Below are positions 5,808 through 32,826 of a stretch of 40,221 bases of DNA, one piece after another. How positions within the stretch are numbered: the stretch's first letter is position 1; each line of letters starts with the position of its first letter. The translations under genes were made by a program, and so were the position numbers. The stretch comes from Candidatus Kaiserbacteria bacterium (GTDB lineage: Bacteria > Patescibacteriota > Minisyncoccia > Phycocordibacterales > Phycocordibacteraceae): the NCBI GenBank assembly GCA_023264445.1, contig JAHFMN010000001.1:29707-69927 (forward strand), written 5' to 3'. Below the pieces are notes generated by a model, which made no database searches, had not been told where the DNA came from, and saw only the letters and a program-made list of their open reading frames with translations.

Positions 5808-5849
5808 GTTGTCGCAATTTTAAACCTATAGGTTTAAAATTGCGACAAC
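5808..5849. repeat. 42-bp perfect palindrome A (core AACCTATAGGTT)
   Basis: gttgtcgcaattttaaaccta|taggtttaaaattgcgacaac; abuts the stop codon of the minus-strand gene 5850-6431. Confidence 0.95.
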
Positions 5850-6431
5850 CTATGCAAGTCTGAAATGCTCGCGCAGTCTCCGGTCAGACTCCAGTGCCTT
5901 GGCGACAAAACACAGCATCTCCCCAACTCCCGTTTTCAGATGGGCACGAATAAGCTCAATGAATTCCTCACAAGGATATGGATAGACCCATACACTGTCT
6001 TGAAGACGAAGAAAACCAGCATTTTGCAGGAGGATTCGGAGCCGTATACGAGTATTACGGCGCTTTTCACGGACGTCAAACATGACAATGCGCCACTTTC
6101 CATCCCAAAAGGCTGGTTCCGGAATACGGTATTCTTCTGCGTATATCGTCTCTAGAACCATATACCCCTTATCGGTCAACTCAACTCGACGTTGTCCACG
6201 CTCACCAGAGGTTTTTACCAATCCTGTATATTCAAGTTTTGTTATTGCCTGCGTGATTTTCCGATAGAGATCTGTACGATTGACGCTTCCGCGGTCAAGT
6301 TGTTTTAAGAGATTTAATGTCTTGGGTGCCACAAGTGCAACAGTTAGTACGCCGCTCGTCGCAAGAGTACGGATAATAAGATTCCGTATAGGGAGGTATG
6401 GACGTCTCCTTTCCGTTCTCATTTTTCTCAT
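5850..6431 (-). CDS. PaaX-like regulator with winged-helix N-domain and Cas2-like/PaaX C-domain
   Basis: 'DLYRKITQAITKLEYTGLVKTSGERGQRRVELTDKGYMVLE' is wHTH-like; 'WDGKWRIVMFDVREKRRNTRIRLRILLQNAGFLRLQDSVWVYPYPCEEFIELIR' has the PaaX/Cas2-like ferredoxin-fold pattern. Confidence 0.7.
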   Translation of the reverse strand: MRKMRTERRRPYLPIRNLIIRTLATSGVLTVALVAPKTLNLLKQLDRGSVNRTDLYRKITQAITKLEYTGLVKTSGERGQRRVELTDKGYMVLETIYAEEYRIPEPAFWDGKWRIVMFDVREKRRNTRIRLRILLQNAGFLRLQDSVWVYPYPCEEFIELIRAHLKTGVGEMLCFVAKALESDRRLREHFRLA

Positions 6432-6470
6432 GTCGCAAATTATAACCTATAGGTTTAAAATTGCGACATA
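6431..6470. repeat. Imperfect palindrome B of the same family, overlapping the start codon of the PaaX/Cas2-like gene
   Basis: tgtcgcaaattataaccta|taggtttaaaattgcgacata; right half matches palindrome A nearly base for base. Confidence 0.9.
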
Positions 6471-31281: not shown

Positions 31282-31665
31282 ATGGGCAAATTGTTGCTAG
31301 CAATTTTAGGCTCTTGCATCCTTGTCAGTTCAAGCGAGGTGCGAGCTCAAGAGTCGAAGCTCGAAATGTTCAATCTGAACGAAAGGATGAACGACGTCTT
31401 CGTCGCCTGCATCGATAGGTCAGATGCGATAGAGGTTGCCGACACTTTCAAGTCAAAGGACCAGGAGAAAGTACAGGCTCTACTCAGCTTCAGAATGACG
31501 GAGGGAAGGTGTGCTGTCATCGGAACCGCCGTCATCTATCGGCGCCTCGTGTATGAAAGCAAGACGCCGGAGGGTAATTCCGCTACCGTGTACATCGGCG
31601 AGGTGGGCGGCGTCTCGATCTACGTTCCGATGATCGGGCTTCGTCACAGGGAAGTAGCGATATGA
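31282..31665 (+). CDS. Secreted hypothetical protein (127 aa)
   Basis: Signal peptide 'MGKLLLAILGSCILVSSSEVRAQ'; SD AAAGGAGG. Confidence 0.6.
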   Translation: MGKLLLAILGSCILVSSSEVRAQESKLEMFNLNERMNDVFVACIDRSDAIEVADTFKSKDQEKVQALLSFRMTEGRCAVIGTAVIYRRLVYESKTPEGNSATVYIGEVGGVSIYVPMIGLRHREVAI

Positions 31666-31669
31666 GCGC

Positions 31670-31692
31670 AAGAGGGGATACCATCCCCTCTT
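31670..31692 (+). terminator. Intrinsic terminator
   Basis: aagagggga-tacca-tcccctctt followed by agcttttt. Confidence 0.85.
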
Positions 31693-31756: not shown

Positions 31757-31800
31757 CACTGTATCAATTTTGAACCTATAGGTTCAAAATTGATACAGTG
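31757..31800. repeat. 44-bp perfect palindrome C, same family as 5808-5849
   Basis: cactgtatcaattttgaaccta|taggttcaaaattgatacagtg. Confidence 0.95.
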
Positions 31801-31868
31801 ATGTATACGCGGATATGAACGAGTATGATGCATGCCTGCGGTGCATACGGAGATGGTACGATATTCTC

Positions 31869-32366
31869 ATGAGCACGACCCCGCAACTCCTCCATGAAGT
31901 CGTCATTACGGCGATCATCGTGAAAGACGGGAAATATCTCATCACGCGCCGCTCTCCGGCAAAGAAGCGGTTCGGCGGGATGTGGACGGTTCCGGGCGGG
32001 AAGCTCGAGACAAGCGACTACGTGAATTTACCGAAAGATACGAAGGACTATTGGTACAACGTGCTTGAGCAAGTACTACGCAGAGAAGTGAAGGAGGAGG
32101 TCGGGCTGGCAATACAAAATATTGAATACGTGACGTCGCTTGCAACCATTCATGCCGATGGCGCGCCATCCCTCGTCATCTCCTGCATGGCGGATTGGGA
32201 GAGCGGGGAGGTGACTCTCCAAGAGAGCGAAACCGACCAATTTGCATGGGTCTCGCTTGCAGAAGCAAAAGAGTATGAACTGCTTGACGGCATTTACGAC
32301 GAGCTAGAAATGGCTGACGCGCGGCGCAGAGGGAAGAAATCGGAGTGGAAGCGTGCTACTCGGTAA
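31869..32366 (+). CDS. NUDIX hydrolase
   Basis: 'GMWTVPGGKLETSDYVN...VLRREVKEEVGL' Nudix box with an insertion. Confidence 0.88.
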   Translation: MSTTPQLLHEVVITAIIVKDGKYLITRRSPAKKRFGGMWTVPGGKLETSDYVNLPKDTKDYWYNVLEQVLRREVKEEVGLAIQNIEYVTSLATIHADGAPSLVISCMADWESGEVTLQESETDQFAWVSLAEAKEYELLDGIYDELEMADARRRGKKSEWKRATR

Positions 32367-32826
32367 AGGGGAGGAAGTCGATTCCTGAAAAACCTTTCGC
32401 GCGTTCCTGATACCAGACGTTGGCGGCGAATTTTTTCCCACTGACTACGAGCGGGAACCATACGCGGTCCGATTCAAGCATGCGCTCATACGGAATAGCA
32501 TCAAGGGCATGCCACTCGGGAACCATACTCTCCGTCTCTTTCGGCTCGCCGATAAAATCGCTCACACGATAGACGTGTACCTCGAAGTCCGGCACGCCTC
32601 CGGCATGGAAGGTGATGACCGCGCATTTCTCTGTAGCGGCTTCAGGCAGTTCGATATCCAGTTCTTCTTTAACTTCGCGGACGAGGCACTCGACGATTGA
32701 CTCGTTCGGTTCCTGCTTGCCGCCGGGGCCATTCAATGTTCCCTCGCCGATTTCCGGCTTGCCTTGCTTGCGGCCGAGCAAAATTCGATCATCTTTTGTG
32801 ATAATTGCCAGAGTTGCAACTTTCAT
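32356..32826 (-). CDS. NUDIX hydrolase (MutT/MTH1-like)
   Basis: 'GTLNGPGGKQEPNESIVECLVREVKEELDIE'. Confidence 0.9.
   Translation of the reverse strand: MKVATLAIITKDDRILLGRKQGKPEIGEGTLNGPGGKQEPNESIVECLVREVKEELDIELPEAATEKCAVITFHAGGVPDFEVHVYRVSDFIGEPKETESMVPEWHALDAIPYERMLESDRVWFPLVVSGKKFAANVWYQERAKGFSGIDFLPFTE

Follow-up and report, generated by a model that had tools for sequence, protein, structure and literature searches.

A palindrome upstream of a NUDIX gene in a Kaiserbacteria genome is probably a solo end of a compact element encoding a PaaX/Cas2-like protein

RAYT genes are described as invariably lying between two inverted REPs and as encoding HUH and tyrosine residues (PMC2817692). 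REP singlets are described as probable remnants of doublets (PMC3116915). In tiny-genome Patescibacteria, we found a recurring unit, apparently mobile, that is similar to REP/RAYT: one small protein gene lies between two palindromes, related solo palindromes are scattered between genes, the type of palindrome is tied to the gene, and symmetry is kept by complementary changes. In contrast to RAYTs, the Patescibacteria protein is not an HUH/Y1 enzyme. Also, these palindromes are essentially perfect and loopless (38–46 bp), they have no GT(A/G)G head (the core begins with TGTnnnAATTTT), and there are about 1–8 of them per genome, instead of over 100 (PMC2817692, PMC3116915). The IS200/IS605 elements and the palindrome-associated elements (PATEs) are likewise compact, with palindromic ends and small non-autonomous relatives, but we recognized neither an HUH motif nor a Y1 transposase fold in the unit described here.

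The protein itself resembles two other families. Like the PaaX repressors (TIGR02277, PF20803), it has a wHTH-like N-terminal region and a PaaX_M Cas2-like domain, and a putative operator (as judged by its position over the -10 box) overlaps the promoter. Unlike them, it has just 193 amino acids, it retains a Cas2-type aspartate, and its gene is dispersed, with palindromes on both sides. It shares with Cas2 (TIGR01573) an FD(I/V) strand with an invariant aspartate and a Q-x-S-V-W motif that resembles Cas2's, but it has an additional N-terminal DNA-binding region. We searched the literature for PaaX/Cas2-like genes that are associated with palindromes and found no reports.

The window that we analyzed is a stretch of 40,221 nucleotides from Candidatus Kaiserbacteria contig JAHFMN010000001.1. 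We argue that the palindrome at 31757–31800 of the window is a solo copy of the palindrome found at the ends of a compact element of about 650 bp, which consists of an end palindrome, a PaaX/Cas2-like gene, and another end palindrome (probability roughly 0.7).

A dispersed family of symmetric palindromes

The sequence at 31757–31800 is CACTGTATCAATTTTGAACCTA|TAGGTTCAAAATTGATACAGTG. As originally predicted, this is a perfect 44-bp palindrome: its two arms of 22 nucleotides are complementary, with no loop. The core that it shares with its family (31760–31797) is TGTnnnAATTTTnnnCCTA|TAGGnnnAAAATTnnnACA, whose variable triplets change in both arms. Relative to the copy at 5808, the differences that had been reported (t/c at half-site position 7 and cg/at at positions 15–16) are indeed present in both arms. 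The NUDIX start was said to be about 70 bp away; it is about 68 bp past the palindrome if ATG 31869 is used, which alignments of NUDIX homologs favor, or 15 bp if the upstream ATG at 31815 is used.

Table 1. Features of the window, and the other solo palindromes in the same genome.
Feature	Position	Strand	Description or context
3' end palindrome of resident element	5808..5849	.	perfect, 42 bp; directly downstream of PaaX/Cas2-like gene
PaaX/Cas2-like gene, 193 aa	5850..6431	-	N-terminal winged-helix-like part and PaaX_M/Cas2-like domain
5' end palindrome of resident element	6430..6469	.	imperfect; right arm on the - strand contains TATAAT
Intrinsic-terminator-like hairpin	31670..31692	+	belongs to upstream ORF 31282-31665; separate from palindrome
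Solo palindrome (site 1)	31757..31800	.	44 bp, perfect, loopless; 38-bp family core plus 3 inverted flanking bases, CAC/GTG; between ORF 31282-31665 and NUDIX gene
NUDIX hydrolase gene	31815..32366	+	3' of solo palindrome; likely start 31869
Solo site 2			between divergent M13 peptidase and alaS genes
Solo site 3			between convergent recR and DEAD helicase genes
Solo site 4			between greA and lysS
Solo site 5			3' of glutaredoxin gene
Solo site 6			3' of rnc

Loopless palindromes whose arms are perfect over at least 21 occur just four times in the window's 255-kb contig, and all four belong to this family. When we simulated the contig five times with an order-1 Markov model, no palindrome reached a score of 11. 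The family's copy number is low: searching the 632-kb genome for the family's pattern gave eight copies, and the reversed pattern, used as a control, gave none. This is more copies than were seen when the palindrome was first proposed to belong to a repeated family. Two of the eight flank the PaaX/Cas2-like gene, which supports the proposed tie between that gene and the family, and the other six are solo and intergenic (Table 1; the gene names at the five distant sites are from translations, not from family searches). Three of these solos (type A) resemble the palindromes of the resident element. The other three (type B, including 31757–31800) have identical 38-bp cores; the genome contains no element of type B, and the source element is presumed to have been lost or to be external. 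We rejected a single half-match to CCTATAGG at C2:80495, as well as CCTGTAGG at C4:12763, as members of the family.

To quantify the symmetry, we analyzed covariation across 13 distinct cores, in comparison to shuffles and to slid registers. Standard pairs account for 94.3% of pair cells, and pairing drops to 26–46% if the register is slid. Changes on both sides were seen in 24 cells (10.5 in shuffles), and the covariation was 0.249, compared to 0.094 for shuffled cores (0/500 shuffles were as high). Self-complementarity is thus maintained by compensatory changes, as had been suggested. Among the cells that are not Watson-Crick pairs, 4/18 are of the G-U type, which is near the expectation for random mismatches. 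This lack of clear wobble enrichment makes the symmetry look like a property of the DNA rather than of an RNA.

At 4 of 23 solos, the symmetry extends for at least 3 inverted bases outside the core, and these bases differ by locus (CAC/GTG, GCAA/TTGC, CAAC/GTTG, and CGGG/CCCG). The four sites are 31757–31800 in the window, C2:139887 and C2:172753 in the same genome, and C1:123354 in a related genome (G017). With core boundaries that were set by eye, the chance expectation is 1/64 per solo, and P is about 4e-4 for the four together. The inverted flanks suggest insertion into small palindromic targets or copying from arm to arm, either of which would explain them.

A PaaX/Cas2-like gene between matching ends

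The resident gene's product matches the PaaX_M Cas2-like domain with 62.9 bits (the gathering score is 24). In contrast, it is far below the cut-off of the full-length NCBIfam model for PaaX (TIGR02277, with 279 positions; 35.9 bits instead of 264.55). Its similarity to Cas2 covers about 37 residues, and it is above the cut-off for TIGR01573 (26.4 vs. 24.5 bits) and below it for PF09827 (20.2 vs. 23.8 bits). Asp119, which is the Cas2-type residue, along with Arg128 and Gln144, is invariant in all 40 of the family members. The protein has just two histidines, neither of them in an HxH (HUH/Y1) motif, and it has no recognized transposase motif. The AlphaFold model is poor (pLDDT 46.6). The gene lies beside genes for an FAD oxidase and an LCAT-domain protein, and no cas genes were recognized among the window proteins that we examined.

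Relatives of this protein are found in 19 of 59 related genomes, with up to six in each. A further search identified 11 loci in named Kaiserbacteria or Parcubacteria contigs, which partly overlap with these. We found no close relative in IMG/VR, PLSDB, or PHROGs. Copies within a genome are just 34–87% identical to each other, so no recent transposition is visible.

When we oriented the flanks of the relatives' genes, most of them, in many genomes, were bracketed by palindromes on both sides. (For a few elements, namely G007a, G008a, and G028a, the search for ends failed or gave one end only.) Among the 35 elements that we compared, the end palindromes are 77% identical within an element and 41% identical between elements, and about 89% of the elements score above the best shuffled pair of flanks. 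Furthermore, the similarity of the palindromes tracks the similarity of the proteins (Mantel r = 0.50, 0/2000 permutations).

The two ends are not equivalent. A -10-like box is found at a nearly fixed place in the right arm of 20/31 of the 5' palindromes, but in only 6/31 of the 3' palindromes and 1/11 of the solos. In the window's element, TATAAT is seven bases before the ATG, which implies that the 5' palindrome also serves as the gene's promoter, and probably as its operator, and that the transcript is probably leaderless.

In three genomes, the solos match the type of the resident element. Besides the type A solos described above, G017 has solos at C1:86032 and C1:91341 that match its element a and solos at C1:112715 and C1:123354 that match its element c, and a solo on a separate contig of G013 is identical over 36 bp to the 3' palindrome, and not the 5' palindrome, of that genome's element.

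Occupancy and alternative explanations

PaaX-type proteins are repressors. The PaaX/Cas2-like protein might then be an ordinary repressor, with the solos as its operators at target promoters, including that of the NUDIX gene; the 5' palindrome does overlap the gene's own -10 box, and the solo at 31757–31800 is upstream of a gene. But the palindrome is not conserved with the NUDIX gene. We inspected the upstream regions of ten NUDIX homologs (66–89% identity for the seven closest and 44–49% for the rest) and found the palindrome in none of them. In G004, the NUDIX-NUDIX-DsbA gene order is kept, yet the palindrome is absent there, and this genome has a solo of its own after dsbA. (The second NUDIX gene, at 32356–32826 on the opposite strand, adjoins the first.) Tabulating the flanking genes of all copies, as had been proposed, placed the solos other than the one by NUDIX mostly between convergent genes or just past stop codons, and solos in general lack the -10 box of the 5' palindromes. 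Nor would a regulon account for the palindrome that lies 3' of the PaaX/Cas2-like gene, and the solos are lineage-specific. We consider a regulon quite unlikely, and the NUDIX gene is probably a bystander rather than a gene switched by the palindrome. Thus, the suggestion that NUDIX might belong to a regulon fares poorly. The original prediction had tied the fates of the regulon and REP-like ideas to copy number and to conservation upstream of NUDIX; the eight copies favor a REP-like family, and the lack of conservation weighs against a regulon.

Presence or absence differs clearly between relatives at three loci, although the species are too diverged to resolve the exact junctions. The junction of recR and the helicase gene is kept in many members of the genus, and the palindrome is found there only in the genome of the window. 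The full element is at the ctpA-rplI junction in 4 of 30 genomes (G086, G017, G067, and G116; we located rplI with tblastn and read the ctpA neighbor directly in the last three), and this junction is otherwise usually tight. G003 and G067 have the full element upstream of infB. At the ends and loci that we inspected, we found no exact empty site, target-site duplication, or excision product; between genes, the species are too diverged.

The solos might also be scars, like solo LTRs, that remain once recombination between the end palindromes has removed an element. Flanking repeats predict such losses, and solos and elements of one genome do share a type. However, both arms of the solo in G013 match the 3' palindrome alone, so that it is not a 5'/3' hybrid; nor are the solos in G017 simple hybrids. 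Also, in the genomes that we read, the recR junction never holds a full element, and neither rplI nor infB has a solo. Excision scars therefore seem unlikely. Another alternative is that the palindromes are recombination sites for a host enzyme (similar to attC in integrons or to Xer sites) and that the PaaX/Cas2-like gene is mere cargo. This would fit with the gene always being between two sites and with a sequence that varies while its symmetry is kept. We think it very unlikely, as the palindromes diverge together with the protein and the cargo is always from the PaaX/Cas2-like family (in searches that were seeded with that gene or with palindromes, so that other cargo would be missed).

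Finally, the palindrome could be selected at the level of the transcript, as a terminator or as a hairpin that protects the 3' ends of mRNAs. The predicted RNA fold of 31757–31800 is very stable (-28.6 kcal/mol, z = -11.2), and several solos are directly 3' of genes. On the other hand, the gene upstream of 31757–31800 has its own terminator (Table 1), the imperfect pairs are not clearly enriched in wobbles, and the element's 5' palindrome spans the promoter, so it is apparently outside of the transcript. No Rfam family passes its cut-off, and we rejected the weak matches to miRNA families as chance matches to a long hairpin. A role in RNA is highly improbable. Of the roles named in the original prediction, this leaves the dimer-binding site and the REP-like element standing, but not the hairpin RNA.

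Proposed mechanism and implications

The best reading is that 31757–31800 derives from an element that is arranged like REP/RAYT but is built on a non-HUH, wHTH-Cas2-like protein, and we do not classify it as a RAYT. As a dimer, this protein would recognize palindromic DNA, with one winged helix on each arm. When bound at the 5' end, the dimer would cover the gene's own -10 box and limit its expression; when bound at both ends, it would mark the unit that moves. We infer that movement is driven by this protein rather than by another enzyme. By analogy to REPs, which are thought to be copied by RAYTs, single end palindromes may be copied to other intergenic sites. Symmetry would persist because one and the same dimer reads the two arms, or because copying proceeds via a hairpin, or both.

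More tentatively, these may be minimal mobile elements of Patescibacteria in which a winged-helix and Cas2-like protein, with no HUH, DDE, serine, or tyrosine recombinase, moves itself and solitary end palindromes and inserts at small palindromic targets; such elements might offer a window on the origin of Cas2. If our reading is correct, then some of the Patescibacteria proteins that score as Cas2 or PaaX belong to selfish, REP/RAYT-like elements whose palindromic ends match each other, and the dispersed family of palindromes would be explained. It would also be a reason for caution before taking such Cas2- or PaaX-like genes for parts of CRISPR systems, and it would provide a testable candidate for a Cas2-like role in DNA mobility outside of CRISPR.

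We also made some minor observations. The elements of G050, G008, G028, and G017 have a second class of palindrome, with ACG(G/A)|(T/C)CGT at the center instead of CCTA|TAGG, which accompanies other branches of the PaaX/Cas2-like family. Five contigs of another genome (C4, C6, C11, C19, and C22 of G001) start or stop no more than about 30 bases from CCTATAGG palindromes, and these are probably assembly breaks at a repeated palindrome. In several species, elements directly precede the promoters of genes for translation (rplI and infB), which might reflect a hotspot or a shared history of insertion.
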